Source: Acidobacteriota bacterium
GTDB lineage: Bacteria; Acidobacteriota; Vicinamibacteria; Vicinamibacterales; UBA2999
Assembly (NCBI GenBank): GCA_016871195.1
Contig: VFZN01000001.1
Span: 124,001-188,000 of the forward strand
Length of the DNA: 64,000 nucleotides
Direction of reading: 5' to 3'
Of the stretch, positions 2 to 20,829 are shown piece after piece. The first letter of the stretch is position 1. Each line of letters begins with the position of its first letter. The notes under the pieces are model-generated. The model had not been told where the DNA came from, did not search any database, and saw nothing but the letters and a program-made list of their open reading frames with translations. The translations under genes and the position numbers were made by a program.

Positions 2-274
2 GAGTGGCAGATCGACCCGGCCGCGCTCGATGGCGCCCTGCAGTTGCTGCGCGTGTGGGGCGTCGCCCGTGACGGGCGGCACAGCCTGCCCACCAGCATC
101 GGCCGCTGCCGCGTGTGGCAGGCCTGGCCTGCACAGGGCGAGGTGGGCTGCGTGCTCGAGTGCCGCAAGGACAAAGCGTTCAAGCTGACCGCCAATGCGA
201 GATTCTTCGACCTTGCCACTGGCGCGGCCCTGCTGTCACTCGACGGCATCGTGATGCACGTGCACGGATCATGA
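2..274 (+). CDS. Polyunsaturated fatty acid synthase subunit, C-terminal end (5' part outside window)
   Basis: The reading frame is open from the first bases and stops at 272-274, so only about 90 C-terminal residues are visible. They contain DPAALDGALQLL, the usual distal motif of a polyketide-synthase-type double-hotdog dehydratase (D-x-x-x-Q with flanking hydrophobics), followed by a beta-rich tail. The stop overlaps the ATG of the next gene (ATGA), so the two are translationally coupled. By comparison with myxobacterial Pfa clusters this would be the end of the subunit carrying KS, malonyl-AT, tandem ACPs, KR and DH. That full architecture is inferred from the neighbour, because only the last domain can be seen here. 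Confidence 0.75.
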   Translation, partial: EWQIDPAALDGALQLLRVWGVARDGRHSLPTSIGRCRVWQAWPAQGEVGCVLECRKDKAFKLTANARFFDLATGAALLSLDGIVMHVHGS

Positions 275-6200: not shown

Positions 6201-8472
6201 GCTGCTCCAGGCGCATCTGCTGCTGGACGGTGCGGTCGAGGCGATACCTGGCGGTGAGTTTGCCGATATGGTGTCGGGCGACAAGGGCATCTGGCAGTTC
6301 CGCGGCCAGGTGTTGCCGGAAAGCCAGCTGGTGTCACTGACACTGGCAGCGCAGCCGATCGACAAGACGGCTGACCGCTGGACCGTGGAGGCCGAAGGCT
6401 CGGTGTGGGTTGACGGTCGGCGCATCTACAGCCTGCGTGGCCTGCGCGTCTCGTTCGTGCGGCCTTCGCAGGGCCGCGCACAGATGCGTCGCCTCGATCC
6501 TGAGACGCAGCCGTGGTGGAACGATCATCGACCCACTTTTGCCGATCCGGTACTGCCGGGCATGGCGATGATCAGCACCGCGCTCGACTGTGCGCGCGAT
6601 GCCGTGGGTGTCGACGACCTCACGCTGCGGCGCTGGCTCGTGCTCGATGCGCCGCGCAGTCTGGCCGTCAGCCGCAACGGCACGCACATCACCATCGCCG
6701 AGGGAGGGCGTCCGCTCGCCGATGGCCAGCTGTGCGTCGAGGCCACACCGGCCCCGCGCGTCGTGCCGGCCCTGCCGAAGCAGGCGGCACCACTCGACGA
6801 TCCGTACGCCAGTGGAGCGATGTTCCACGGACCGGCCTACCACCGCGTCGTATCGGGCCGCCGGTCATCGGCCGGCGCGGATCTCACGCTCACGATTGAT
6901 CCCGAGGCTGACCGCCGCGAGCGCGTGTCGCACATCGTGCTCGATGCCGCCCTGCACGGCGTGCCGCACGATGCGATGCCGCTGTGGTTTCCCGACGTCG
7001 CGGAGGGGCAGGTGGCCTATCCCGCGCGCATCGAACGCTTCCGCCTCTATGCGCCGCTGCCCGCGAGCGGCACCATCGACGTGCGCGTGCGGCCTGACGG
7101 GGTGTGGGGCCACCCGCGCTTTCCCCGGGTCTATGTGCAGTGGATTCACAAGGGACGAGTGCTGGCCGATCTGCGGCTGGTCGAAGCCTGCTTCCCCGCC
7201 ACGCGGCTCGGCACACTGCCCGCCGCCGACCGCCTCGCGTTCCTGCGTGACGGACGGTATGTGCCGGGCGCGCGGCTCAGCGAGACCGACGGCACTACCA
7301 CGACCCTGACCGCCGAGGCCATCGCCTCCGCCGACTGGGTGCCCGGCACGGTGCGGACGCTCTACGGTCTCTCCGCAGACGACGTTCCGGTGACGGCGGT
7401 GGCCGCCCGCGAACACGCCGCGCTGCGCCTGGAAGCGCACCCGCGCGATCTGTCGGTGTCGGCAGACGGTCGTGTCTCATCGCCGTGCTTCCCGCTGCTC
7501 GACTACCGGGTGCAGGTGTCAGCAGCCAGCCACAGTGCCACTGTCCGAGACGTGGCCCCCCCGGCGCTCGACATGGCCCGCATCGAGCGGTGGTGGGACG
7601 CGGCCCGCTGGCAGAGTCGCGAGCCGTCGCTGCAGCCGCTGTTTCTCGAGGCGAGCCGACAGTTCGTGCAGCGCATCCGCCTCATTGATCCCGCGGCGAT
7701 CGCCGCCCTCTACGGACGTCCGCTGCTCCTGGTCGCCAATCACCAGGTGGCCGTCGAATCGGTGCTCGCCGGCACCGTGCTGCCCGCCGTCATCGGTCGT
7801 CCCCTGCTGACACTCGCCAAGAGCGAGCATCGCGACACCTGGGTCGGGCGCCTCGCCATGGGCCTCAACGACGACCGTCACGGCCCCGCCATCGTCTACG
7901 TGGACCGGGAGCGGAGGGAAGACATGGCCGAGCGTGTGGCGGACATGGCCGCGGCCGCCATGAGCGGCCAGCGTTCGCTGATGGTGCATGTCGAGGGCAC
8001 CCGCGCCACCCACGGACGGCAGCCCGTGGGAAAGACCAGCTCCGTCTGGGCGGACCTGGCGCTCAGTGCCGGTCTAACCATCGTGCCCCTGCGCTACTGC
8101 GGCGGCCTGCCGGTCAGCGGCACCGACGCGCGCCTCGAGTTTCCCAGCGGGATGGGCGGACAGACGCTGGTGCTGGGCCGCCCCATTCCGCATGAGGAAT
8201 TTGCGCAGCTGCCGCTGGCAACCCGCCGCGATCGCATCCTGCAGGGCCTCGCCGAACTCGAGCCGTTCGATCACGATCCGATGGGCGATGCGGCGTTTGC
8301 CTCACGGGTGTCCGCCGCACGCGGACGATGGGGCCTCGATGAAGTGCGGGCGGTGTTTCTGCTGCTGCAGGCGGCGGCCCAGGGATGGGCCCTTGATGCC
8401 GAGGGCCTGCCGGCCGAGGCGGTCGCACGCCGTATGGGGGGTACGACGTTCTGGGAGTGGTTCGGCGCCTAG
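271..8472 (+). CDS. Giant PUFA synthase subunit (Pfa3/PfaC-like): KS-CLF-AT-DH hotdogs-PS-DH-acyltransferase
   Basis: About 2733 residues from the ATG that overlaps the previous stop. Domains in order: ketosynthase (about 1-430, triad Cys177 in DAACASG, His312, His348); chain-length-factor-like KS (about 470-740, cysteine replaced by Ser613 in AGSTSG); AT (about 770-1130, nucleophile Ser851 in GLSSGE); an Ala/Pro-rich linker; four FabA-like hotdogs (about 1300-2050, His1574, His1780 and His1959; the first lacks the His); a further double hotdog with His2086 and Asp2225 resembling a PKS dehydratase; and a C-terminal PlsC-type acyltransferase (NH at 2490-2491, EGTR at 2575-2578). This matches the myxobacterial Pfa3 layout, in which the terminal acyltransferase is proposed to move the product to lysophospholipid. 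The H-x4-D box has Glu2496 in place of Asp. Product chain and unsaturation cannot be predicted. The enoyl reductase subunit is presumably upstream, outside the window. Confidence 0.88.
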   Translation: MSARVMPIAVVGRGTVLPGALDTSTLWQRILSRDDLTGPSTRAMWGLSPAAVCDDPREPAACARGGYVSGFDRVWSPEGFSVGAEQLAALPEGWRWLLHATRQALREAGIESPGARAGLVLGSLGYATRTFADTAARRWCGDLDADSPALAGQYGAVSWTAAACGLDGPRFALDAACASGLYALTAACDLLESRQADLVVAAGLNAADDLFLHVGFTALSALSRTGRSAPLSTEADGLLPAEGAAALVLKRLDDAVAAGDRIYGIVRGVGLSNDGRGSGLLHPATVGQQRAIRRAYEGTALTPADIQLLECHATGTLVGDREEILSVRAVFGDAHEMAIGSLKAQLGHLITASGTAGVLKLLGAFEHAQRPPAPLVSLAHPINALQGSRLRLHDAADAWTPGHAPRRAAINAFGFGGCNAHAVLEGPEGADDLRRTARPRPATRREAAPVAETPSTAPALALVACEMSVGAAADVTSVLRVLLSLDAATRRTGAIDLELKGLGFPPADLQQTLPQQVLLLRAAQSLRAHLGDIDRDRLGIFVGTDVDPAGARHGCRWRLSQYLGRDTSEAERDAVVSPLQAAGVLGTMPNMPANRLNSALDARGPGMVVSAGSTSGTEALRLAADALGCGDIDAALVGAVDASGGAFGDDPSLADTCVVWVIMRAGETGTRDVLATLTPATGDRHTDTVVVPWADGGHAQSLLQLSTAALCCRHALWPDDPRQPWVGADQVLTLHGWRVESPRVQGLAEDVPTLPDVDEAPQGTSGELALVFTGAAAAYPGAGRTLLRALPAVGDDLRAMAPHLAASLPALLAQPALSLIDQLQLATLVSQSQALLLARLGVVPDACLGLSSGETNAIMATRAWTDPDALFADVRTSGMYDRHLAGHYQTLRTAWNLSDAAPVSWRCYRVTHPVEALEAEVARHPRVRVLIEHHERDAVIGGDEAQCLAVIDALQASAVPIHHDLLVHCSELDPFAETWYAVHHRTTRSFTSPRLYANAINRAYEPSSDACATMLTTQARSLVRFHPTVAQAYADGVRTFLELGPRAACTAWIDHILKGRTHDSAAMDGSRGTLHEAADALATVAAAGHRVDLRAWRALLSDIRVIAPVDRGRTRAATIRIHGHLPQPVFHRIGSHDALVPAPTLIPSLDSRLHPVASAAVEPIVLPATDGPWFPESVDMTHPSAALQALATVQRGLLQVQQLAVSYLHALPHSSTQSAVLALPPSVAPIADAEPVAGISTGAAHATAHGHADIIATDASAAVVAPATNPAPEAAPTRRAGMPPPGTLTFTREQLAIHAGGTISEIFGPQFIPQDRNRRQVRMPMEPLLLADRITGMVGEPASMKTGTVWTETDVRSDSWYLYDNRMPTGIMIESGQADLFLISWLGIDLLDRGERVYRLLGCELTFHGGLPTVGDTLRYEIHIDSHARHGDIGLFFFHYDCRIDDQVRLSVRHGQAGFFTDEELAESAGVLWDPADDVPAADAPLDGPRPGVVPDAAYDADRVRAFAQGRLVDAFGEGFVRGASHTRTPRIPDGPMRLFDRVEAFDLHGGPWGRGYMRAVLGISPDQWFFPGHFKNDPCMPGTLMFEGCLQTMAFYMAALGYTIEHDGWRFEPVQGRPYLLRCRGQVTPKATSVIYEVYVAEVISGPEPMLIADLMCTVDGLRAFHCRRMALRLTPDNPFGPRELAAVPADREPVAEHNGFRYGQASLLACANGDPVEAFGALYASLPPTRRVPRLPAPPYHFISRVTSLSHPPGGMNAGVVVETAYDIPPDAWYFAAHPTGQMPVCVLVEAALQPCGWLASYVGCAVHERDEVFFRNLDGAGTLHRAVRHDDGCLRVKSRLKSLARAGGMTLVSFDVTCHVGDELIYELATAFGFFPKAALEGQAGLTASDEERALADARSGVDLLTGLDAAAQACLPKDTLRMCERVTERRIGADGHARLRGEKSVRPDEWFFRAHFFQDPVQPGSLGVEALVQLLQAHLLLDGAVEAIPGGEFADMVSGDKGIWQFRGQVLPESQLVSLTLAAQPIDKTADRWTVEAEGSVWVDGRRIYSLRGLRVSFVRPSQGRAQMRRLDPETQPWWNDHRPTFADPVLPGMAMISTALDCARDAVGVDDLTLRRWLVLDAPRSLAVSRNGTHITIAEGGRPLADGQLCVEATPAPRVVPALPKQAAPLDDPYASGAMFHGPAYHRVVSGRRSSAGADLTLTIDPEADRRERVSHIVLDAALHGVPHDAMPLWFPDVAEGQVAYPARIERFRLYAPLPASGTIDVRVRPDGVWGHPRFPRVYVQWIHKGRVLADLRLVEACFPATRLGTLPAADRLAFLRDGRYVPGARLSETDGTTTTLTAEAIASADWVPGTVRTLYGLSADDVPVTAVAAREHAALRLEAHPRDLSVSADGRVSSPCFPLLDYRVQVSAASHSATVRDVAPPALDMARIERWWDAARWQSREPSLQPLFLEASRQFVQRIRLIDPAAIAALYGRPLLLVANHQVAVESVLAGTVLPAVIGRPLLTLAKSEHRDTWVGRLAMGLNDDRHGPAIVYVDRERREDMAERVADMAAAAMSGQRSLMVHVEGTRATHGRQPVGKTSSVWADLALSAGLTIVPLRYCGGLPVSGTDARLEFPSGMGGQTLVLGRPIPHEEFAQLPLATRRDRILQGLAELEPFDHDPMGDAAFASRVSAARGRWGLDEVRAVFLLLQAAAQGWALDAEGLPAEAVARRMGGTTFWEWFGA

Positions 8473-8493: not shown

Positions 8494-10395
8494 TTACACA
8501 TCAATTTCACCGGCATCCTCGGCCCGCTCCATGATGAAGCGGAAGCGTGCCGAGGCATCTTTGCCCATCAGCTCGTTCATCACCCGATCGGTCACCAGTT
8601 GATCGGTCACCTGCACTTTCAGCAGCCGGCGCGTGCGCGGGTTGAGCGTCGTCTCCCAGAGCACCTTGGGCATCATCTCGCCAAGCCCCTTGAAGCGCGT
8701 GATCTCGGGCGTGCTCCGCCCGGACCGCTTCACGATGGCATCACGCTGCGCGTCATCAAGGGCCCAGTGCGTTTCCTTACCGATATCGATGCGGTACAAC
8801 GGCGGCTGCGCCAGATACACGCGGCCTGCCTGAATCAGCTGCGGCATGTGGCGGAAGAGGAAGGTCAGCAGCAGCGTGGAAATGTGGTGCCCGTCCGAGT
8901 CGGCATCGGCCAGCAGAATCACCTTGCCGTAGCGCATGCGCGCCAGATCGAACTGCTTGCCCACACCGCACCCGAGTGCCGTCACCAGATCGGCCAGCTC
9001 CTTGTTCTCGAGCACCTTCGCGGTCGATACGCCTTCCGTGTTGAGCACCTTGCCGCGCAGCGGCAGAATGGCCTGCCGCGCGCGGTCGCGGCCCTGCTTG
9101 GCCGAGCCGCCTGCCGAATCGCCTTCGACAATGAACAGCTCGCTGGCCAGTGACCCCGGACTCGTGCAGTCTGCCAGCTTTCCCGGCAGGTTGACACGAC
9201 CGGCCGTCGGCCCCTTGCGCACCACCTCCTGCTGCGCGGCACGGCTGGCCTCGCGGGCGCGCGCCGCCAGGATGATGCGGGCCACAATGGCCTCGGCCAC
9301 CGACTGGGTATGGTTGAGCCACTGCTCGAGTGCGGGCCGGACCAGCCCGTCGATGACCGACAGCACCTCGGGATTGTTGAGGCGGTCCTTGGTCTGCCCC
9401 TGGAACTGCGGCTCGTCGATGAACACCGACAAGACGCCGGTCGTCCCTTCACGGATGTCGTCGGCCGTCAGCGTGACGCCCTTCGGCGAGAGGTTGTGCG
9501 TGTCGATGTAGTTGCGCACGGCCTTGCCGAGTCCGGCCTTGAGCCCGTTCTCGTGCGTGCCACCCGACGCCGTTGGAATACCGTTCACGTAGCTGCGCAG
9601 ATGCTCGTCGGTCGATTCGGTCCACTGCAACGCCAGCTCGAGCTTGACGACGCCGTCCTTCTCGAGCACGAAGGGTGCCTCGTGCACAGGCTTCGCGCTG
9701 CGCTCTCCGACAATCTTCCTGAGGTAGTCGACCAGGCCGTCGTCATGCTGGAACGTCTCTTTCCGCCCCTGCGCTTCTTCCTCGAAGGTGACCTTCACGC
9801 CGCGGTGCAGGTAGCTGGCCACCTCGAGCCGCTCGCGGATCGTCTGCGCGTCAAACTCGACTTTCGGAAAGATGGTGGCGTCGGGACGGAAAAACACCGT
9901 GGTACCGCTGCCGCGCGCCGCACCGACCTTGCGAATCGGGCCCTCGGGTTTGCCCTGACGGAACCGCATCTCCCACTGCGCACCATCGCGGCGCACCGTC
10001 GCGACCAGTTCGCGTGACAGGGCATTGACGACGCTGGCGCCGACGCCGTGCAGCCCGCCCGCGGTCTTGTAGTTGCCCGACTCGAATTTGCCACCGGCAT
10101 GCAGCACCGTGAAGATCACTTCCAGCGCGCTTTTCTTCGTCGTCGGATGCACATCGACAGGAATGCCGCGGCCGTCGTCTTCGATGGTGATTGAAGTGCC
10201 GTCGCGATGCAGCGTCACCCTGATGTTCGAGGCGTGTCCGTTCATCGCCTCGTCAATCGAGTTGTCGAGCACCTCCCACACCAGGTGGTGCAGTCCGGCA
10301 CTGCCGACGCCCCCGATGTACATGCCCGGGCGCTTGCGGACGGGCTCGAGGCCTTCGAGCACCGTAATGTCTTTGGCGGTATACGTCGTCGACAC
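8494..10395 (-). CDS. parE: DNA topoisomerase IV subunit B
   Basis: A 633-residue type IIA topoisomerase ATPase subunit. Visible in order are the GHKL ATPase domain ([36 protein letters not shown]), the transducer domain, and the TOPRIM domain ([14 protein letters not shown] and DADSDGHH) with the ParE/GyrB C-terminal block GLGEM. DADSDG resembles ParE more than the DADVDG of GyrB, and a parC-like partner is at 22003-24435, so topoisomerase IV (decatenation) is preferred over gyrase. The start is the GTG at 10393-10395 just before the conserved [20 protein letters not shown] block. A longer open frame upstream would add about 52 unconserved residues running into the divergent gene. TAGAAT lies 11 bases before the GTG. 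Confidence 0.9.
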
Positions 10396-10448
10396 GATAT
10401 CCGATGATTCTACGGGAAACCCCGTGCACCTGTGACGATGTGATATCT

Positions 10449-10775
10449 GTGGAGACCGTGCATCCGCGGATAGTGGGATTCGGTGTGGCGGCGGTGGTCC
10501 TGGCGGCTGCCGTGGGGCTGGGATGGTGGCTGATGCCCCCGTCCGGGCCACGCTATCGTGTGGCCAGGCGCACGACGGCCCATCACATGCTGGTGCTGGA
10601 CGTCGAGACGCGCGATCCGGAAGATGCGCTTGAGCTGACCGAGGTCATCACCCGCGACGATCGGTCGCGTTACGAGGAGATTCTCGTGTTCTTCCACCAG
10701 CCGCATCACCGGCGGGCCCTGCGTCGTGTGCAGTGGACCCGCCAGGAGGGCTTTGTCGAGTGGGTGTATCGCTAG
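10449..10775 (+). CDS. Small membrane-anchored hypothetical protein
   Basis: About 108 residues, not recognised as a named family. One hydrophobic segment near the N-terminus (IVGFGVAAVVLAAAVGLGWW) is followed by a soluble, charged, probably extracytoplasmic domain containing RYEEILVFFHQPHHRR and a C-terminal aromatic stretch. The start is uncertain. An ATG at 10404 is in frame but only eight bases from the divergent parE start, which leaves no room for promoters, so GTG 10449 is preferred. GTG 10458 is also possible. The stop overlaps the convergent NYN gene by four bases in a shared CTAG. Confidence 0.6.
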   Translation: METVHPRIVGFGVAAVVLAAAVGLGWWLMPPSGPRYRVARRTTAHHMLVLDVETRDPEDALELTEVITRDDRSRYEEILVFFHQPHHRRALRRVQWTRQEGFVEWVYR

Positions 10776-12328
10776 CGCGAGGTTTTTTTGGCGCGCGCGG
10801 GGGCCTTGCGGGCGCTGGTCTTCCGGGCCGCCCCGGGACGCTTGCGGGCCGCGCCCGTGCGGCGTCCGCGGGTCGCCGTCAGTGCCAGCTCGGGCGGTTG
10901 CGGTTCGTCGATGATCTCGTCGTCGTCACCCGCGGGCACCGGCGGGCGGCCGCCGCCGACGGTGCCGAGCAGCTCGCGGGTGGGATCACTGGCCCCGCCC
11001 ACGATGCGGTTGCCGATGTCGTCATCGGGCAGACCGACGTGGCCGGCTGAGTGGCCGAGCACAGGCTGGTGGTTGGGGCCTTCGCCCGTTTCTTCCTGCA
11101 GATCGTCAGCGGGCTCGGTCTGGCCGGCCGGTGCCAGTGTGGCCCATCCATGGGGCACGGGCCCGCGCGCCGCGATACCCGCGCCGCTGAAGACACGCAA
11201 TGCGCCCTGGCGATCGCGCTCGAGCTTGAGCAGGCCATCCTTCTGGCACGCCCGCATGAGGTCGGCGATTGATCCGTATTTGCGCTCGTCGAACGCAATG
11301 TCGGCCGCACGCAGGAACTGCTTGAACTGTCGCGGGTACATCGGCCATCGGGGAGGCGTGGTGGCCTCGGCCAGCACGCGGCGCACCAGTGCGACGCCCT
11401 CACCGAGCGACGGGCTGTCGCTGCGGCACGGTGCCTCGGCCTCGCCCGTGGCGACGGCATCGGTACCAACCGCCGGCGCGGCATCGTCCGCGGACGCCGC
11501 CTCTGCCGAGGGTTCCGCCATCGGCAGCGCAGGTGCCTCGGCCGAGTCGTCGGCGCGGCCGTCGGCCAGCTCAACCAGCGTCGTACGGCCCTGATGGCGC
11601 AGCACGACGATGCCCTGCTGGGCCAGCTTGTCGGCAAAGTCACGGAAGCTGCCCGAACCGTAGTCGCGCTCTGAAAATGACGAGTCGAGCTGCAGCAGAG
11701 TGCTCTTGAGCAGGCCCAGCTGGGGCGACACTTCGCGGTCGGCCAGCACCTGCAGTGCACGCTTGACGAGTGCTACAGCGCCCTCGAGGCTCTGCGCAGC
11801 ATGACCGCTGCCGCCGCGGGGACGTTCGCCACGGTCGGCCCTCGCCTGTACGCGGCGATCGGGAACGATGTTCTCGTAGGCGATGAACTCGGTGCAGTTC
11901 TTCTGCATCACCTGGCTGGTGAACGCGCGCCCGCCCACGACAAAGACCTTGCGGTCGTACTGCTTCAGTTTCTCGACGAGCGTGATGAAGTCGCTGTCGC
12001 CGCCGACGATGACGAAGGCGTTGATGTGCGCATGGGTGAAGGCCATCTCGAGGGCATCGAGGGCCAGATTGATGTCGGCGCCATTCTTGTCGCCGCCGGG
12101 GGTCATCACGCGCTGCACCAGGCGCACGGCGTGATTCGACATCGCGCGGCCGTAGTCGCCCGACCGCTTCCAGTCGCCGAAGGCGACCTTGGTGACAATT
12201 TCGCCGCGTTCCTTGATGGCTTCGAGGACGGCCCCGATGTCAAAGGGGAGGCCGAGGGTGGTCTTCACGCCGATCTCGACGTTGTCGAAGTCGATGAACA
12301 CCGCAATCTTCAGTTTTTGATCAGACAT
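10772..12328 (-). CDS. NYN-domain nuclease-like protein with two OST-HTH/LOTUS domains
   Basis: A 518-residue protein. Residues about 5-165 are a NYN (LabA/DUF88, PIN-like) domain with the acidic metal-site motifs FIDFDN, GADINLALD and GGDSDF. Two OST-HTH/LOTUS winged helices follow, at about 190-260 (EVSPQLGLLKSTLLQLDSSF) and about 325-395 (YPRQFKQFLRAADIAFDERKYG), joined by an acidic Ala-rich linker. The C-terminal region of about 120 residues is disordered and ends in a Lys/Arg/Ala tail resembling a nucleic-acid-binding tail. The family is associated with RNA binding and cleavage; the target is unknown. The start is the ATG just before DQKLKIAVFIDFDN; upstream in-frame residues look unconserved. 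Confidence 0.82.
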   Translation of the reverse strand: MSDQKLKIAVFIDFDNVEIGVKTTLGLPFDIGAVLEAIKERGEIVTKVAFGDWKRSGDYGRAMSNHAVRLVQRVMTPGGDKNGADINLALDALEMAFTHAHINAFVIVGGDSDFITLVEKLKQYDRKVFVVGGRAFTSQVMQKNCTEFIAYENIVPDRRVQARADRGERPRGGSGHAAQSLEGAVALVKRALQVLADREVSPQLGLLKSTLLQLDSSFSERDYGSGSFRDFADKLAQQGIVVLRHQGRTTLVELADGRADDSAEAPALPMAEPSAEAASADDAAPAVGTDAVATGEAEAPCRSDSPSLGEGVALVRRVLAEATTPPRWPMYPRQFKQFLRAADIAFDERKYGSIADLMRACQKDGLLKLERDRQGALRVFSGAGIAARGPVPHGWATLAPAGQTEPADDLQEETGEGPNHQPVLGHSAGHVGLPDDDIGNRIVGGASDPTRELLGTVGGGRPPVPAGDDDEIIDEPQPPELALTATRGRRTGAARKRPGAARKTSARKAPARAKKTSR

Positions 12329-12466
12329 TCCGATGGATCTCTTGAGGGAAGAAGCGCCGTGAGCGCCACGGCCGATTGCCGCTGACATCTCACCGCCGGA
12401 GCCCGGGCTGCGTCACGTGGCTCGATCTTCAGTATACCCGCAGAGTGCGGCGGACGGTGCGGCCCG

Positions 12467-12838
12467 CTATTTCCGCCTGGCCGTAAAGCTGCCGTTCAGC
12501 ATGCCGCCGATGTTCATCGTGCCCTTCATCGTGTCGCCATCGACGGTGCCTTCGTAGGTGACCGGGGCCTGCTGGCCCTGCACATTGATGGTGAACGAAA
12601 ACTCGATGGCCGAGCCCTTCACCGTGCCTTCCAGTTCCGAGGTGCCGAGCTGACCCTTATACTGGCCCGTCAGCTTCTCGCCGTCCTGCTTGAAGACGAT
12701 GGTCGGCGTGCCGTTGCCCTGTCCGGTGTCGACCGTGAAGATCCATGCACCAGACACCGACGGCGCCTGCGCACGACCCGATACCAGGGTCACCACCATC
12801 AGCACGGGCACAAGCGCACACAGCACACAATGACGCAT
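12467..12838 (-). CDS. Exported small beta-rich hypothetical protein
   Basis: A 123-residue protein with a Sec signal peptide (about residues 1-25, ending GRAQA). The mature part is made of alternating strands with the repeated pattern GxW..F.V, G..LTGQYKG, LEGTVKG, YEGTVDGDTMKGTMNIGG, which looks like a small lipocalin-like or beta-sandwich fold. I do not recognise a named family or function. The start is well supported by GGAGGT followed by four bases and then ATG. It is divergent from the TPR gene at 12915, with 76 bases between them for both promoters. Confidence 0.75.
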   Translation of the reverse strand: MRHCVLCALVPVLMVVTLVSGRAQAPSVSGAWIFTVDTGQGNGTPTIVFKQDGEKLTGQYKGQLGTSELEGTVKGSAIEFSFTINVQGQQAPVTYEGTVDGDTMKGTMNIGGMLNGSFTARRK

Positions 12839-12902
12839 CACGACCTCCGCGTTTGAGAACCTCACGCGATGGTAGCAGATGCCTGAACGGGTCGGCCCCC
12901 GG

Positions 12903-12908
12903 TAAGAT
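12903..12908 (+). promoter_or_regulatory. Candidate -10 box TAAGAT, leaderless type
   Basis: TAAGAT lies exactly six bases before the ATG of the TPR gene and there is no Shine-Dalgarno in between. No convincing -35 hexamer is visible. Confidence 0.5.
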
Positions 12909-12914
12909 GCCTGT

Positions 12915-13535
12915 ATGGTTCTATACCGACGCTCGTCTGTGTGTCTGCTGCCGGCACTGCTGGTGGCGCTGGGGGTGACGGCGCTGGCGCAGCCAGAGGT
13001 GCCGGTGGTCTCGACACAGGTGCTGTTTGAATCCGGCGAGTTTGACGCGGTGCTGGCCCGTGTGGCCGACGGCGCCGAGCCGGCCCCCGAGGATATCTTC
13101 ATCGCCGGCATGACCCTGCAGAAGCGCGAAGATCTCGACGGGGCCTCGGCACAGATGCACCGGCTCGAGGCGAGCGACGATGCGGTGTGGGCGGCGATTG
13201 GGCGGTCGGCCGTGGCCCTGTTCTCGAACCGTGACGCCGAGGCGCTCGAGGTCGCGCGGCAGGCCGTGGCACTCGACGGCGACCATGTCTTTGCCCAGTA
13301 CCAGCTCGGTCTGGCGGCGGTCGGCAACAGCGATTTTCCCACGGCAACCAGGGCGTTCACCCGTGTGATTGACCTGCAGCCTGCGTTTGCCTACGCGCAT
13401 TACTACGCCGGGCGCGCGTATCAGCGTCAGCGGAACCTCTCGAAGGCGGCCGAGCATTATCGGCGCTTCCTGCAGCTGGCACCGGCATCGGCCGACACGG
13501 CGACCGTGCAGGCGCTGCTGCGCGCACTCAAGTAA
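12915..13535 (+). CDS. Exported TPR-repeat protein
   Basis: A 206-residue protein with an N-terminal signal sequence (about 1-25, cleavage after ALA). It has at least three tetratricopeptide repeats: around residues 100-125 (AVALFSNRDAEALEVARQAV), 130-165 (AQYQLGLAAVGNSDFPTATR) and 167-200 (AHYYAGRAYQRQRNLSKAAE). These are protein-protein interaction modules, probably periplasmic. It is convergent with the TamB-Omp85 gene, which ends 22 bases downstream; a link to that envelope machinery is possible but is inferred from position only. Confidence 0.8.
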   Translation: MVLYRRSSVCLLPALLVALGVTALAQPEVPVVSTQVLFESGEFDAVLARVADGAEPAPEDIFIAGMTLQKREDLDGASAQMHRLEASDDAVWAAIGRSAVALFSNRDAEALEVARQAVALDGDHVFAQYQLGLAAVGNSDFPTATRAFTRVIDLQPAFAYAHYYAGRAYQRQRNLSKAAEHYRRFLQLAPASADTATVQALLRALK

Positions 13536-13557
13536 CGCACGCACGCCCGCGGCGGCT

Positions 13558-16500
13558 TCAGAAGATGTGGCCGAAGCCGAGGTAGTAGCGACCCGACCCG
13601 ATCTGGTTGGCCCGGCGCCTCGAATTGGTCGGGGTCGTGGCCGGAATGCCAAAGTCGAGGCGCAGCAGACCAATCGGCGAGTTGAGCCGCACGCCGACGC
13701 CGTAGCCGAGGCTCAGGTCGCGCGTCGAGAACTGTGCGCGGTCAAACGCATTGCCGGCATCGACAAAGGCGAGCGCGCTCAGCCAGCGGCCCAGCGACAC
13801 CCGCGCCTCCTGGTTGACGACCAGCATCGAACGCCCGCCCGAGGGGCTGCCGTCGGGCCCGACCGGCCCGAGGCCGTTTTCCGCGTAGCCGCGCACCGTC
13901 GTGCCGCCGCCGGCGAAGAAGCGATCGACCGGCAGCAGATCGTCGGGACCGAAGCCTGTGCCCGCAAGGACACGCGCCGCCAGCACCACCGGCCCCCATG
14001 AACGGAAGCCTGACTGCTGCACGAACACCTTGCCGTAGCGGGCATCCGACCCGAGGCCGCGTGCGGCTTGCTCAAGGGACACCGACGAAAACGTGCCGCG
14101 TGTCGCGTTGACGGGACTGTCGCGGCGATCGATGAGCGCCGCTGCGGTCACCTGGCCCACCGTGGCTCGTTCATCCAGCGGAAAAAAATCGAGCGGCGAG
14201 GGCGACGGGTCGTACGTGTGGCTCGTCTCAATCCGATAGCCGTAGGTGACTTCCCAGCCGCGGCGACGCCGCCAGCGCTGCTCGAGACTGAGGCTCGCCG
14301 TATCGGTGATGCTGACGACATCGCCCTCGAACCGCATGCGTTCGCGCGACACGGCGCCGAACAGACCCGTGCGGACGGGCAAGCCCAGGAAGCTTGCGTT
14401 TTGCAGAAAGGTATTGGCGCGCTGATAGTCGCGCTCGATACGCGTGGCGACGCCGGCCGTCAGCGCACGCCCGAACACGTTCTGGTTGCGCAGTTCACCG
14501 ATGACGCCCACCGTCGTATCGACGCGCCCGGTTTCGCCGGCCACCTCGCGATCGCGATCGGCCTGTGCTCCGTATCGCAGGCGCCACGGTGCGTACTCTT
14601 CCACCGTCACCACGGCCATCACGGGCTGGTCGCCCCCCTCGGGGGTGCCGTCAGGTTCCGGCGAGATATCGACGGCACGGAAGACATTCGTGTCGAACAC
14701 GCGCTTGCGTGCCAGAGCCCACTCATCCAGATTGACCGGCTCGCCTTCGTGCAGGCGCAGCGCGCCACGCACAACCCCGTCGCGCGTACGGGCACTGCCG
14801 CGCGTGTCGACGCGACGCAGCACCTGCCGCAGACCTTCCGTCACCGTCAGGCTCACGTCGACGGTGCCCGGGCGGCCAGGGGCGGCAGCCACAGTCACCG
14901 ACACATCGTTGAAGCCCCGCTGCCGGTACTGCCGATCCACGCGATCGCGCGCGCGTCCGACGGCGGCCAGCGTGTAGGGGTCGCCGCTGCGCAGTTCGGC
15001 TGCATCAGTCATGTCTGCCAGGCGTGAGTCGTGCACGCCCGACCAGCGCACATCGCCCACCAGAGCGCGCGGCCCCTCGACGACATGCACCGGCAGCACC
15101 ACCCGGTCGGATTGCATCACCGGAGGATCGACCGCGACCGTGGCTGCGAGGTAACCGATGGACCGGTAGTACTGCTGCAGCGTTTGCGCCAGTTTCGAGC
15201 GGTCGGCCCACCCGTCCACGGCAAGACCCGCGCGCGTCACCACGTCTTCCAGCGCGTCACGGCCCACCCCGCCATTGCCGTCGTAGATGCGCTCGCGCCT
15301 GGCCGACACCGGACCGGGGGTCACGGTGACCCGTACGGTCTTCACCGGTCCTTCCACCACCATCGTGCCACTGACCTCGCCGGTCATCTGGCCGCGGGTC
15401 AGCAGCAGCCGTCGCACGCGCGCCTCGGCATCCTGCACCACAAACCGATCGAACACCGCCCGGCTCCACATGTCGTGCACATCGGTGACCAGCCGCGGCG
15501 GCACGGCCACGCCTTCCACCTCAAGCCGTGTTTCAGGACCGCGCGCGATGGCGTACGTCACCTCGACACGGCCATCCTCCCGCGTCTCACGCTCGCCGCG
15601 CACGCGGGCCTCGGCGTAGCCCTGCGCAATCAGCACACTGCGCAGCGCGTCGAGGTCACGCTGCCACTCATACGAGTCGAAGGGTCCACCCGTCACGAGT
15701 CGCACGCGGCGCCGCAACTCGCGCTCGCTGACAGGCGCGTAGTCGCCGGTGATCGCCACGCCGGCGACGCGCACCGTGGGGCGCGACAGCCGAACCGACG
15801 TCCGCTTCGTTCCACCAAACGTCACATCGTGCCGCACCCCTGCTCCCAGCGTGCCGTCGTCGCGCGAGATGGCGCGCACCTCGAGGGTCGGACGGGGATA
15901 GTAGCTGACCACGAATGTCGTCTTGCCGTTCTGCCGCAGGTTCTGCGAGAGCACAAACTCGACGGTGTCGCGCACGCGCTTCGAGAACGTGAGGCGTGTG
16001 ACCGGGTTGGCGTTGTCTTGGAAGAGCAGGCTGGGATCTTCACGGAACTCGTCGCGCACCACATCGCCGCGGTCGAGGCGCACGCTGTCGAACCCGATCT
16101 GCCGACCCGTCACACCCAACAGATCGCTCGACAGCAGTGTCAGGGCATTGCTGCCCGTCACGGCGCCGCCGAACAGCGCCGTGGCGATCTCTTCTTCGCT
16201 GCCGCCGTTCTCCGACTGCAGCTCGTACGAGAACCGCTGCGGCGTGCCCTGCAGTGTCAGGGTGACCGTGCCTTGCCCGGGCAGTCGAGTCTCGGCCTGC
16301 AGGTCGAGATCGGGTTCGATGCGCGACAGGTTGGTGAACGAGACCGTGCCGCGCACCAGCGTGAACGACCGTCCCGCCGCATAGAGCGTCCCGCCCTCGC
16401 GGATGGTCGCCCGCCCGCTGAGCCCCGGCTGTGCATAGGTGCCGACCAGGCGCACCTGCGCACCGGTGTCGACGCGGCCATAGTTGTTGTCGACGCGGAT

Positions 16501-19500
16501 GTCCTCGTCGGTCGTCACCGCAATGTCGAGGCGCATGCCGTCGATCAGCGTCGGCGCCGGCTGAACGCCGGAGGTTGACGCGGCACGCGACAGCGCCGCG
16601 AGACTGATCGGATCGGTGAAGCCGCTGCGCCTGATATGCACATCGCCCCGGGCGCTGAGGTCATACACATCGCCCCCGATGGCACGGACGGTCAACTGCG
16701 CATTGACCTCGCTCCGCAGACCCACCGGGTACTCGACCCCGATACCTCGACCCACCACTGTGACTTCTGCCTCCTGCAGGCCGCCACTGGTGACCACCGC
16801 CTGCCCGGTCAGGCTGACCTGGCCACCGTTGGCCTCGCCGCTGAGCCCGTCGAACGTCACGCGATTGCCCGCCAGCCGGATGGGACCGGTGACACCCGTG
16901 GCGACGAGGCGCGGTGACTGCAGCCCGAACTCCGCATTGCGCAGCGTGATGGTGCCCGCAAGGTCGGGCACGCGTGGTGTGCCGCCGACATAGACGGCCA
17001 CATCCGCCACGCCGTCCACCGAGACGTCGGGAAGCACCGCCGACAGCACGCGTATGATGGCGACGCCGCTGAGGTTGAGGTTGAGCGCCGGTTCCGCCGG
17101 CTGCAAATCGACGTTGCCTTCCAGATAGAGGCGCGTCGACAGCGCCTCCCACGCCACATCGTCCATCGACACGATGCCGCGCGTCAGCGACACGGTCGAG
17201 GGCCGCACCTGCGTCACGGCCACGCCGCCGGCATCGAAGGCGCCACGCTCGAGCACAAACTGCCCCGTGGCCTCGCGCGGGTCGAGGTTCGGCAGCCGCC
17301 CGCGACCCGTCACCGTGAAGGGTCCGCTGACACGCGCCACCTGCAACTGGCCGCTGATGCCGTCGACGCGGAACTCGTCGCCCTCGAGTGAGACGCGCAC
17401 GGCCAGGTTATCGACGAGCCTCTCGCCCTCTGCGCCCACGGTGCCGGCGTCAACGGCCATCGATACCCGCAGGTCTTCGGGGCGTGTGGTGGTTGCGAGC
17501 GAGGCCTGCAGGCGACCCGTCACGTCGACGGGAAGCTCGACTCCGAAGGCCTCTGCGGCCCGGGCGACATCCTGCACGGTGCCCTGATACCGGGCGGCCA
17601 GTACACCGCTGCCGCGTCCGGCCTGTGACCCTGAGACTGTGACGACACTCTGGCCGAGCGCGACCTGCAGGCCATCGACGGCCAGCACCTCAGGCGTCCA
17701 GGTCAGGCGCGCGGGCGCGCGGAGGGCGGCAGCGACACCATTGAGCTGCGCCTCGAGCGTACGTACGGTGAGGTCGGCCGTTGCCGCGGCCGGATCGTTC
17801 CACACACCGCTGGTGCGGGCCTCGAATGACACACGGCCCGTCAGCGCATTCGGCACGGCATCGACCAGCGGGGCCACGCGCCCGAGCGACAGGCGGTCGG
17901 CCACCATCGTGCCCGTGTAGGCATAGGGTGCCTCCAGCGACATGGCACCGTGCACCGAGGCGCCGAGCGCCGGCGCGTCGACATCGACGCGCGCCTCGCG
18001 GCCGTTGAGCGTGACCGTCGCCGAGCCTTCGCTCACCAGATCGCCCACCACACCCCCAGACAGGCGCAGCGTGAAGTGCCCGTGGCCCTGGGGCGCAGTC
18101 AGCGGACCATGACTCTCGAACGTGCCGTCCGCGATGACCTGCGACGGCACGTCCTCAATCAGAGCCCCCGTCCACGAGAGCCCCGACAGCCGTACCGACA
18201 GGTCGTGCGTGTCGTCCAGTCCGTAACGGCCGGTCGCATCGAGTGCACCGGTCCCCTGCTCGATGCGCAAGGCATCGAGCCACACATCTTCAGCGCGGAC
18301 ACGCACGGCACCGGTCGCCAGATGCAGCACCTCTCCGGCCAGCGTCAGATTCGAGGGCTGCACCGTAACGTCAATGGCCGGGGCCTCGAGCGTGCCGCCA
18401 ATCGTCGCCTCGGCCATCAGGGCGCCGCGCAGTCGCGACGATTCATCACGCCCGGTTTGCCATTCATCGAGCGTCGGTACGTCGATGCGCATGGTGCCGC
18501 GCAGTTGCTCGCGCCTCAGATCGACCTGCACCTCACCGGAGGCCACCGTCGATCCTCGCGACACCGACACCTGCTCGACGTCCATGCGCTGGCGGTCGGC
18601 CGTGAGCCGCGCCCTGACCTCGACATCGCCAAGCCCGGGCAGGCCAAGAGCCGGCGAGTAGGCATCGATCGCCACACGCGGCGACGCCATCCGGCCCGCC
18701 AGCGTGACTGCGGCCTGCAGCGTCCCCGAAGAGCCGCGCACCGCCGCCGGCACACGGTAACCCTGCGGCTGCAGCGACCGGTCGGCCCCGGCCAGCGACC
18801 GCACGCGCACCTGCGTCTGCCCCCCGAGCGTGCTGCGCATGACATCATCCCAATCGAACTGCCCCGCCAGGCGGCCATCCGCCGACACGCCATCCGCCTG
18901 CAGCGCATGTGCGATGGTGTAGCGGCCGTTCCGGATGTCGACGCGTGCACGCCCTGCCACCGGTGTCGTGCGGCGGCTCTGGAACCGGCGCGCCGTCGCC
19001 TCGAGCGCCAGACTCGGTTGCGCGCCCCCCACAAACAGCGCCTCACCGTCGAGACGTCCGGCCACCGGCAATACCGTCGTCTCGAAGATGCGCAGGAATA
19101 CCCGCGCATCCACATCACTGAATGTGGCGCGTGTGCGACTGCCGTCGTCGGACCCGGGGGGAATGTCCACATCGAGCGCCAGCTCGCCGCCGCTCTCCGG
19201 TGCCAGCACCAGCCGCGACAGCGTGATCCGGCCATCCGACGTGTACAGCAGCGAGCCGCCGGCCGTCAGTCGCGGTTCGTCACCCACGGCCAGTCGCGGG
19301 CTGTCGACGCGTCCGCTCGCTTCCGCCTCACTGAGCGGCCCGTACACCGCGCCCCGCACATCGGCCATGCCGTCGAGCGGAAACCCGAAGTCAATCCATC
19401 GGCCAAACGCGCCAGTGTCGAGCTGGCCGGCATACTGCAGGTCAAGCGCCGGGGCATCCAGCACACGGACAATGCGTCCGGTGAGACCGAAGCGGCCGAG

Positions 19501-20211
19501 CCGGGCATCCACAGGCACATCGAGCAGCGCGACCTCGTGCCGGTCGAACGCCACGCGCGCCACGAGCGGCGCCACGTCAAGCACGCGATCAGGCCAGCGC
19601 AGCTGGAGTCCGCGCGTCAGCGCCACGGGACCGCTGGCCCTGTCACTCCCGGCTCCCGGCGACGCCTCGAGCGCGATGGTCACACCATCGGCCGAGAACC
19701 GCTCGCCGCCCGGCACATCTTCCAGGACGAACCCAAGATCGCTGACATGCAGCCCGCGCACCGTCAGGGCCAGCGGGTCTTCAGATGGCGGCGTACCGTC
19801 TCCATCAGGCAGGTTGCTGACGCCTCCGGCATCGGTCGACAGCAACACCCGGGGGCTCTCGAGCGCGATATCCGACACCACCACCCGACCGAGGAAGACC
19901 GCCGGGGACAGATCCACAGTCACACGCCGTGCGGTGAGGAACGGCCGGTCCTCGCGTCCCGCCGTGGCCAGCTGCACGTCCGTCAGCGACACCGTCGCGG
20001 TCAGCAGGTTGTAGGTGAACGCGCCCGACTGCAGGGTCAGGCCGACTTCGCGGGCCAGCCAGTCGGTGACCCACGCCTGGGCGCGCGCCCGGGCCGGGGG
20101 CAGGTGCAGCAGAAGCAGCGCGAGGCCCAGCGCCGCCCCCACGGCCACGCCTGTCCCCGCCAGCCAGCGCCTGCCTCCCCTGAACACTCCCTGATTGTAC
20201 CCGTCGCCCAT
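13558..20211 (-). CDS. TamB-like protein fused to POTRA/Omp85 outer-membrane barrel
   Basis: About 2217 residues in one uninterrupted frame. Residues 1-45 hold a basic cytoplasmic end and one membrane anchor (GVAVGAALGLALLLLHL). Residues about 45-1460 are AsmA/TamB-type repetitive beta structure with the conserved TamB C-terminal block (FSKRVRDTVEFVLSQNLRQN). About 1470-1870 look like five POTRA repeats (FDSYEWQRDLDALRSVLIAQG and similar). About 1875-2217 are an Omp85 barrel with the loop-6 motif TVRGYAENG near residue 2107 and a terminal Phe (GHIF). In Proteobacteria TamB and TamA are separate inner- and outer-membrane proteins; here one chain would span the envelope. The role, lipid transport or barrel-protein assembly, is inferred. 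The start is ATG 20211; ATG 20241 is in frame but leaves only 21 bases to the divergent selenoprotein gene. Confidence 0.85.
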   Translation of the reverse strand: MGDGYNQGVFRGGRRWLAGTGVAVGAALGLALLLLHLPPARARAQAWVTDWLAREVGLTLQSGAFTYNLLTATVSLTDVQLATAGREDRPFLTARRVTVDLSPAVFLGRVVVSDIALESPRVLLSTDAGGVSNLPDGDGTPPSEDPLALTVRGLHVSDLGFVLEDVPGGERFSADGVTIALEASPGAGSDRASGPVALTRGLQLRWPDRVLDVAPLVARVAFDRHEVALLDVPVDARLGRFGLTGRIVRVLDAPALDLQYAGQLDTGAFGRWIDFGFPLDGMADVRGAVYGPLSEAEASGRVDSPRLAVGDEPRLTAGGSLLYTSDGRITLSRLVLAPESGGELALDVDIPPGSDDGSRTRATFSDVDARVFLRIFETTVLPVAGRLDGEALFVGGAQPSLALEATARRFQSRRTTPVAGRARVDIRNGRYTIAHALQADGVSADGRLAGQFDWDDVMRSTLGGQTQVRVRSLAGADRSLQPQGYRVPAAVRGSSGTLQAAVTLAGRMASPRVAIDAYSPALGLPGLGDVEVRARLTADRQRMDVEQVSVSRGSTVASGEVQVDLRREQLRGTMRIDVPTLDEWQTGRDESSRLRGALMAEATIGGTLEAPAIDVTVQPSNLTLAGEVLHLATGAVRVRAEDVWLDALRIEQGTGALDATGRYGLDDTHDLSVRLSGLSWTGALIEDVPSQVIADGTFESHGPLTAPQGHGHFTLRLSGGVVGDLVSEGSATVTLNGREARVDVDAPALGASVHGAMSLEAPYAYTGTMVADRLSLGRVAPLVDAVPNALTGRVSFEARTSGVWNDPAAATADLTVRTLEAQLNGVAAALRAPARLTWTPEVLAVDGLQVALGQSVVTVSGSQAGRGSGVLAARYQGTVQDVARAAEAFGVELPVDVTGRLQASLATTTRPEDLRVSMAVDAGTVGAEGERLVDNLAVRVSLEGDEFRVDGISGQLQVARVSGPFTVTGRGRLPNLDPREATGQFVLERGAFDAGGVAVTQVRPSTVSLTRGIVSMDDVAWEALSTRLYLEGNVDLQPAEPALNLNLSGVAIIRVLSAVLPDVSVDGVADVAVYVGGTPRVPDLAGTITLRNAEFGLQSPRLVATGVTGPIRLAGNRVTFDGLSGEANGGQVSLTGQAVVTSGGLQEAEVTVVGRGIGVEYPVGLRSEVNAQLTVRAIGGDVYDLSARGDVHIRRSGFTDPISLAALSRAASTSGVQPAPTLIDGMRLDIAVTTDEDIRVDNNYGRVDTGAQVRLVGTYAQPGLSGRATIREGGTLYAAGRSFTLVRGTVSFTNLSRIEPDLDLQAETRLPGQGTVTLTLQGTPQRFSYELQSENGGSEEEIATALFGGAVTGSNALTLLSSDLLGVTGRQIGFDSVRLDRGDVVRDEFREDPSLLFQDNANPVTRLTFSKRVRDTVEFVLSQNLRQNGKTTFVVSYYPRPTLEVRAISRDDGTLGAGVRHDVTFGGTKRTSVRLSRPTVRVAGVAITGDYAPVSERELRRRVRLVTGGPFDSYEWQRDLDALRSVLIAQGYAEARVRGERETREDGRVEVTYAIARGPETRLEVEGVAVPPRLVTDVHDMWSRAVFDRFVVQDAEARVRRLLLTRGQMTGEVSGTMVVEGPVKTVRVTVTPGPVSARRERIYDGNGGVGRDALEDVVTRAGLAVDGWADRSKLAQTLQQYYRSIGYLAATVAVDPPVMQSDRVVLPVHVVEGPRALVGDVRWSGVHDSRLADMTDAAELRSGDPYTLAAVGRARDRVDRQYRQRGFNDVSVTVAAAPGRPGTVDVSLTVTEGLRQVLRRVDTRGSARTRDGVVRGALRLHEGEPVNLDEWALARKRVFDTNVFRAVDISPEPDGTPEGGDQPVMAVVTVEEYAPWRLRYGAQADRDREVAGETGRVDTTVGVIGELRNQNVFGRALTAGVATRIERDYQRANTFLQNASFLGLPVRTGLFGAVSRERMRFEGDVVSITDTASLSLEQRWRRRRGWEVTYGYRIETSHTYDPSPSPLDFFPLDERATVGQVTAAALIDRRDSPVNATRGTFSSVSLEQAARGLGSDARYGKVFVQQSGFRSWGPVVLAARVLAGTGFGPDDLLPVDRFFAGGGTTVRGYAENGLGPVGPDGSPSGGRSMLVVNQEARVSLGRWLSALAFVDAGNAFDRAQFSTRDLSLGYGVGVRLNSPIGLLRLDFGIPATTPTNSRRRANQIGSGRYYLGFGHIF

Positions 20212-20235
20212 TTGGGAATGAGACCGCTCCTCTGG

Positions 20236-20241
20236 TAGCAT
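20236..20241 (+). promoter_or_regulatory. Candidate -10 box TAGCAT for the peroxiredoxin gene
   Basis: TAGCAT lies 21 bases before the start codon, leaving a short 5' leader that contains the strong Shine-Dalgarno GGAGGT at 20250-20255. No clear -35 is visible. Confidence 0.35.
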
Positions 20242-20262
20242 CGCGCGGTGGAGGTAACGTTC

Positions 20263-20808
20263 ATGCGCGTGAAGTCCGTGTTCGTCGGACTGGCAGCGGC
20301 GCTGGGTGTTCTGGTCGGAAGTGCCGGCCGCGCCGAGGCACAGACTGCCGAGCTCAAGGTGGGAGATGCCGCACCGGCATTCTCGCTGCCCGGCTCAGAC
20401 GGCAAGACCCACAGCCTTGCGGCCTCGAAGGGCAAGCGGGCGGTGGTGCTGGCCTGGTTCCCCAAAGCATTCACCGGTGGTTGAACGGCCGAATGCAAGT
20501 CGCTCCGTGAGAGCGGCGCACTCATCCGTCAATACAACGTTGACTACTACATGGTCAGCGTCGACAACCTCGAGGACAACACCAAGTTTGCCCAGATGCA
20601 CGAGGCCGACTATCCGATCCTGAGCGACGTCTCCAAGGCCATGGCCACGGCGTACGGCGTGCTCAGTCCGGCCGGGTTGGCCCGCCGCTGGACGTTCTAC
20701 ATCGCGCCCGACGGCAAGATCCTCCACATCGACAAGACCGTCGCGCCGGCCTCGTCCGGACCCGACATGGTGAAGAAGCTCGGCGAACTCAACATCGCCA
20801 AGCGGTAA
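20263..20808 (+). CDS. Exported selenocysteine-containing peroxiredoxin (TGA codon 74 read as Sec)
   Basis: The frame from ATG 20263 (GGAGGT seven bases upstream) runs to TAA 20806-20808 and is interrupted only by TGA at 20482-20484. Both sides are one thioredoxin-fold AhpC/TSA-type peroxiredoxin: signal peptide (1-26), KVGDAAPAFSLPGSDG, VVLAWFPKAFTGG-U-TAECKSLRES, YPILSDVSKAMATAYGV, WTFYIAPDGKILHID; 181 residues in total. The TGA sits exactly at the peroxidatic cysteine of the family (usually TPGCT), and Cys78, four residues on, could be a resolving cysteine. A 7-bp hairpin with a G-containing loop follows at SECIS distance. Peroxiredoxins are a known bacterial selenoprotein family, so selenocysteine is much more likely than a nonsense mutation. 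It would reduce peroxides in the periplasm, with an unknown electron donor. Normal calling would give a short N-terminal ORF and a separate downstream ORF. Confidence 0.88.
20499..20517 (+). promoter_or_regulatory. Bacterial SECIS-like hairpin
   Basis: The arms GTCGCTC (20499-20505) and GAGCGGC (20511-20517) pair over seven positions including one G-U, closing a five-base loop CGTGA with G in its second position. The loop begins 22 bases after the TGA, inside the 16-37 base range usual for bacterial SECIS elements. It lies within the coding sequence, as SelB-dependent recoding requires. Confidence 0.72.
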
Positions 20809-20829
20809 TCTCAGGGGTGATTCACCGCA

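Follow-up and report, generated by a model that had tools for sequence, protein, structure and literature searches.

A TamB-Omp85 fusion in a single reading frame of Acidobacteriota and its relation to split tamB-omp85 pairs

In Escherichia coli, the translocation and assembly module (TAM) consists of two proteins encoded in the order tamA then tamB: TamB carries a signal anchor, a beta-groove and a DUF490 domain with barrel-like C-terminal strands, while TamA is a 16-stranded Omp85 barrel with three POTRA domains and its own N-terminus. In a cryo-electron microscopy (cryo-EM) structure of E. coli TamAB, TamA strand 1 is paired with the last strand of TamB, whose preceding strands occupy the lumen of the barrel; lipid-like density was seen inside the groove of TamB, which binds phospholipid (PMC12800296). 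Here, we describe a TamB-Omp85 fusion encoded by an Acidobacteriota bacterium (assembly GCA_016871195.1) within a 64,000-nucleotide stretch of contig VFZN01000001.1 (positions 124,001 to 188,000; hereafter the window). It has these same domains but differs from the E. coli TAM in being one chain with TamB first, five POTRAs and the TamB end placed internally.

Other described systems resemble the fusion in part. The TamB of Borrelia burgdorferi likewise works with a five-POTRA Omp85 whose barrel it is modelled to complete; however, the two are separate proteins, the Omp85 is the organism's BamA and there is no TamA (PMC13382580). TamL of Bacteroidota is also an Omp85 partner of TamB, but a separate lipoprotein. 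The trans-envelope MlaD of Veillonella parvula combines an inner-membrane anchor and an outer-membrane barrel in one polypeptide as a proposed lipid bridge, although it belongs to the MCE-domain family, has small ten-strand barrels and unrelated domains, and its proposed lipid direction is opposite to that of TamB (PMC10665443). The closest counterpart is a split tamB-omp85 pair on contig C15 of the source genome itself, with the same gene order and a TamB ending in a homologous RHxF strand; it differs in having two genes, and its Omp85 starts with a signal peptide and has two distal POTRAs more than the fusion, seven in all. No published TamB-Omp85 fusion was found in the openly licensed literature, including recent TAM reviews and structures, nor is one mentioned in the searched passages of surveys that cover TamB and the N-terminal domains of Omp85 proteins (PMC4494059, PMC4104836). 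Database curators may well have noticed the domain order already.

Anatomy of the fusion frame

The fusion frame lies on the minus strand (window 20241..13558), encodes 2,227 amino acids (aa; ~235 kDa at full length) without an internal stop and is conserved across the phylum. The plus strand at the same coordinates contains stops and does not encode the fusion protein. Met1 is at 20241 and a second in-frame ATG at 20211 corresponds to Met11; the true start may lie anywhere between 20241 and 20187. An earlier note on this DNA had placed the uninterrupted frame at 13558-20211 with the strand unstated; the frame and its end hold, but its start was Met11 rather than the first ATG.

Features along the chain, all on the minus strand, begin with an N-terminal inner-membrane signal anchor (residues 20-44, 20110..20184), which is predicted as a helix by AlphaFold2 and contains the most hydrophobic 12-residue stretch of the entire protein (Kyte-Doolittle hydropathy 2.63). 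A continuous TamB/AsmA-like beta-groove follows (residues 68-1343, 16213..20040), identified from AlphaFold2, strand alternation and Foldseek, and overlaps the Pfam TamB (DUF490) domain (residues 1133-1462, 15856..16845; 63 bits, cut-off 22.4). The barrel-like C-terminal strands of TamB (residues 1415-1475, 15817..15999), supported by AlphaFold2, conservation and covariation, finish in an RHxxTF strand that corresponds to the free C-terminus of split TamBs. Beyond a linker (residues 1476-1490, 15772..15816; pLDDT, the per-residue AlphaFold2 confidence, ~44) come five POTRA domains (residues 1491-1882, 14596..15771; Pfam POTRA 108.6 bits from residue 1490) and a 16-stranded Omp85 barrel with a terminal Phe (residues 1886-2227, 13561..14586), found by Pfam (residues 1921-2215, 129 bits, cut-off 24), AlphaFold2 and Foldseek. 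The VRGY loop-6 motif occupies residues 2116-2119 (13885..13896) and is conserved in alignments as (T)VRG(Y/F). Pfam detects an AsmA/DUF748-like start that stays below its cut-off, then TamB, the POTRAs and Omp85, and the scan of the fusion returned zero MCE domain matches.

AlphaFold2 modelling of residues 1028-2227 with 50 aligned relatives (mean pLDDT 81, predicted TM-score 0.69) showed the TamB groove to its end, then helical segments, the five C-terminal strands of TamB, the linker, five POTRAs and 16 barrel strands, while residues 1-1200 (pLDDT 87) were modelled as the N-terminal helix followed by a long strand series. Hydrophobic/polar alternation over the 63 groove strands was 2.55, compared to 1.54 ± 0.14 after shuffling, a value that none of 500 shuffles reached, and this fits a predicted groove with one greasy face. 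In Foldseek searches, BamA (all five POTRAs aligned) and TamA (Z 20.6) were tied as the closest solved folds of the C-terminal half. The N-terminal half retrieved the lipid-handling proteins ApoB, LPD-3 and LptD with low TM-scores, which support only a general groove-like resemblance. The anchor, the repetitive beta structure, the conserved TamB C-terminal block, the approximately five POTRAs, the VRGY motif, the terminal Phe and the placement of anchor and barrel on one chain, all proposed in the earlier note, are borne out by these analyses.

Conservation across the junction is uneven. R1456, H1471, F1475 and G1476 of the TamB terminal strand remain conserved although they are now internal, and the last TamB strands reach 2.2-2.9 bits, compared to 1.4 in the linker. 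The linker varies in sequence and is nearly constant in length, with G1476 and G1499 of POTRA1 separated by 21-34 residues in a 50-sequence alignment. No signal peptide was detected at the junction, where the best 12-residue hydropathy was 1.03 (2.1-2.7 in split Omp85s). The strand that elsewhere places Phe/Tyr at the very end of TamB is kept together with its Phe, only here the POTRAs follow.

By its signal anchor, beta-helical ("taco") body and DUF490 score, the N-terminal half has the features of TamB, the anchor being a TamB hallmark (Heinz 2015, PMC4494059). The C-terminal half has the 16-strand barrel, POTRAs and VRGY/F loop 6 of the Omp85 superfamily, and its scores stayed below the family cut-offs for TamA (NCBIfam equivalog, 94 bits versus 625), BamA (TIGR03303, 181.5 versus 297) and TamL (69 versus 400). 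Assignment to BamA is ruled out by the model score and the tree described below. The earlier description of this half as TamA does not hold in the proteobacterial sense, given the low score, five rather than three POTRAs and the presence of TamB on the same chain. Sequence comparison instead places it in an acidobacterial clade of TamB-linked Omp85s, whose unfused members have seven POTRAs.

Distribution and descent

The fusion is widespread in Acidobacteriota. Among 297 genomes drawn evenly across the phylum, 228 contained a match to the POTRA-barrel half, and among the matches listed approximately 60 of the 297 carried the Omp85 half inside an open frame of about 1,940-2,452 aa. TamB-C and barrel shared one frame in all 36 such loci that were fetched, and the architecture spans at least 25 family-level groups. 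A further scan with an acidobacterial query covered contigs of 84,980 species with named records. Among the matches listed there, the fusion occurred in Vicinamibacteria/Luteitalea, Gp5, Gp6, "Sulfopaludibacter" and "Aminicenantes" metagenome-assembled genomes (MAGs), and the nearest named relatives of the window were Acidobacteria MAGs of the Vicinamibacterales type. Nearly all named Acidobacteriota loci (L077-L131 and L133) have the same domain order in one frame, the exceptions being contig-end cuts and L122, in which the frame breaks near the barrel. Because this order recurs in the 36 other loci and the named loci, it reflects neither chance nor the frameshift near 15800 that the earlier note had allowed for. 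Outside Acidobacteriota, no fusion was among the matches listed for the acidobacterial query (Omnitrophota, Calditrichota, Deltaproteobacteria and others were unfused), and seven such genomes examined held no fused-size frame. The titles of a few records name Acidimicrobiia, Cyanobacteria or Dehalococcoidia; these are apparently MAGs with wrong labels.

The source genome also encodes a canonical BamA (contig C10, 452.9 bits, cut-off 297) and the split pair on C15, in which a 1,362-aa TamB ending in RKRHTF is immediately followed by omp85. Therefore, the fusion is neither this organism's only TAM nor its beta-barrel assembly machinery, and in the order to which the window belongs a split TAM stands beside it. 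Of the separate bamA, tamA and tamB genes that the earlier note had in mind, bamA is present and tamB occurs as part of the split pair, while the three-POTRA TamA model does not describe the fused half. Two further POTRA-bearing Omp85s accompany the fusion. The split Omp85 begins with a signal peptide and its gene runs off C15; it is broken by the contig end (L037 17214-19889 at the end of C15; L039 1-1222 at the start of C4), and the two pieces overlap by 916 bp at just 91% nucleotide identity, probably reflecting strain mixture in the assembly. Another 20 fetched Acidobacteriota loci with unfused tamB and/or omp85 mostly show the order tamB then omp85, and split TamBs terminate in a free VRxRHxF strand. 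No TamB other than the fusion was detected in ten genomes checked from other families, so that it can serve as the only TAM; all ten, among them G059 (one closed contig of 6.0 Mb), also hold a separate BamA-sized Omp85.

Trees of the Omp85 part and the TamB C-terminal part agree, as expected for a unit evolving together. Acidobacterial TamB-linked proteins group together, away from BamA and E. coli TamA, and both trees place split tamB-omp85 pairs of the source genome and the phylum closest to the fusion. Within the acidobacterial group there are two fused groups, A (to which the window belongs) and B, and one unfused group. Separate origins of A and B are unsupported, as a tree that holds them as one clade was not rejected and had a higher likelihood than the freely searched tree. 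Profiles of the individual POTRAs match POTRA1-5 of the fusion to POTRA3-7 of the seven-POTRA split partner. Two fused loci (L071 and L075) retain all seven POTRAs and sit among the unfused proteins, making a second, separate fusion event likely for them, while a single origin of all fusions is not rejected either (approximately unbiased test, p 0.39). Most simply, a single old fusion would have cost the stop codon, the signal peptide and two distal POTRAs, and a second one, later, would have kept all POTRAs. Since the trees are quick and supported only by Shimodaira-Hasegawa-like approximate likelihood ratio tests (SH-aLRT), this order of events is provisional.

Proposed mechanism and alternative explanations

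We consider it probable that the fusion is a covalent, 1:1, single-chain translocation and assembly module working like TamAB. The N-terminal helix would be the inner-membrane anchor, the TamB part would form a long hydrophobic groove across the periplasm with its last strands near the outer membrane, and the chain would then run through the short flexible linker and five POTRAs into its own 16-stranded barrel. The groove may hand phospholipid and/or unfolded barrel strands to the lateral gate of this barrel. The tether would replace docking and fix the stoichiometry at 1:1; a fixed TamB-Omp85 ratio, proposed in the earlier note, follows by construction provided that the chain stays uncleaved. 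The fusion lacks two distal POTRAs that the split partner has, and these may be docking modules that became redundant.

As E. coli TamAB does, the fusion could also pair its last TamB strand with the first barrel strand, which would turn the POTRAs into a large periplasmic loop between two paired strands. In the E. coli structure, the TamB strand follows a hairpin touching an extracellular loop and therefore runs toward the periplasm, while barrel strand 1 runs up (PMC12800296). By our own topological argument, the end of TamB and the start of strand 1 are then both periplasmic, so that the order TamB then Omp85 permits pairing; a Borrelia BamA-TamB model shows the same strand pairing (PMC13382580). 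In covariation analysis with the last TamB strand, barrel strand 1 ranked first among 769 sequence windows. It kept the top place after gap filtering, when only group A was used and in random subsets, and the best register was mostly antiparallel, suggesting a match of TamB residues 1465-1475 with barrel residues 1886-1898 (residue numbers summing to about 3361). Several points weigh against this interpretation. The alignment comprised 78 sequences, known neighbouring barrel strands barely exceeded background in the gap-filtered run, and mean-field direct coupling analysis was dominated by gap artefacts and uninformative. As power was low, docking of the last TamB strand on its own strand 1 is suggestive only. 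More broadly, we infer the transport function, the pairing in cis and the role of the missing POTRAs from sequences and predicted structures of members, and sequence does not tell a lipid from a protein substrate. A bolder version, possible yet tentative, has the chain close on itself: the TamB C-terminal strands would be built-in extra strands of its own gate (a "self-hybrid" barrel) with the five POTRAs as a periplasmic loop, giving a one-molecule inner-to-outer lipid conduit that is possibly the cell's only TAM.

The transport reading competes with a doubtful alternative close to the "mechanical coupling" of the earlier note, in which the fusion chiefly inserts barrels, with TamB as a scaffold or as a tether that couples force, and moves lipid only incidentally. 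Five POTRAs on an Omp85 barrel would suit this role, and barrel insertion by purified E. coli TAM has been observed in vitro (PMC11341756). Against it stand the likeness of the long, alternately hydrophobic groove to lipid-handling proteins, the binding of phospholipid by E. coli TamB (PMC12800296) and a separate canonical BamA in the source genome. The last TamB strand might instead pair in trans, with BamA or with the Omp85 of the split pair, making the fusion a two-barrel adaptor. The Borrelia TamB does partner BamA (PMC13382580) and the source genome offers two further POTRA-bearing Omp85s, yet we find this distinctly unlikely, as the tether raises the local concentration of the cis partner and the within-chain covariation favours the fusion's own strand 1, a signal that may also reflect two fusion copies pairing.

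Alternatively, the frame may be fused while the protein is not, with a periplasmic protease cutting the linker or an internal restart yielding separate TamB and Omp85. The variable and predictedly flexible linker would allow cleavage, although its length is held within the narrow range given above. An internally started Omp85 could not be exported because the junction has no signal peptide, which disfavours a restart, and we judge this explanation unlikely overall. An assembly artefact or frameshift joining neighbouring genes has almost no probability: the 51-contig assembly does carry a split tamB-omp85 pair in the same order elsewhere, but dozens of independent genomes, including the closed G059, encode the same fusion in one frame and refute an error of this kind.

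Genomic surroundings and significance

Upstream of the fusion, a divergent peroxiredoxin (window 20263-20809, plus strand; AhpC/TSA, 100.6 bits) has an in-frame TGA at the position of the peroxidatic cysteine (FTGG-U-TAEC) and is a candidate selenoprotein. The TGA is kept in the loci of 16 relatives, one extra paralogue has Cys, and the source genome contains a tRNA-Sec candidate (62 bits, cut-off 47). The order Sec-peroxiredoxin, fusion, NYN-domain protein and gyrB (window 8494-20809, with gyrA beyond) is kept in the loci of approximately 16 close relatives and not further out. Directly downstream of the fusion, a 297-aa open reading frame (12467-13360, minus strand) has no Pfam or NCBIfam match. 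A 2,785-aa polyketide/fatty-acid-synthase-like protein (115-8472, plus strand) contains three FabA-like dehydratase stretches, a ketosynthase, an acyltransferase and a PlsC-type acyltransferase.

For structural work, in which full-length assembly and stoichiometry are hard to hold, the fusion provides a single-gene, single-chain TAM and a direct test of whether the E. coli hybrid barrel is a working state. The loss of two distal POTRAs upon fusion points to which POTRAs may serve docking. Together with V. parvula MlaD, the fusion would be another one-chain case with domains in both membranes, and because both halves are made as one chain, bridge and outlet cannot come apart. Overall, the persistence of a natural fusion while much of the phylum diverged speaks for an obligate rather than a transient 1:1 pairing of TamB with this class of Omp85.

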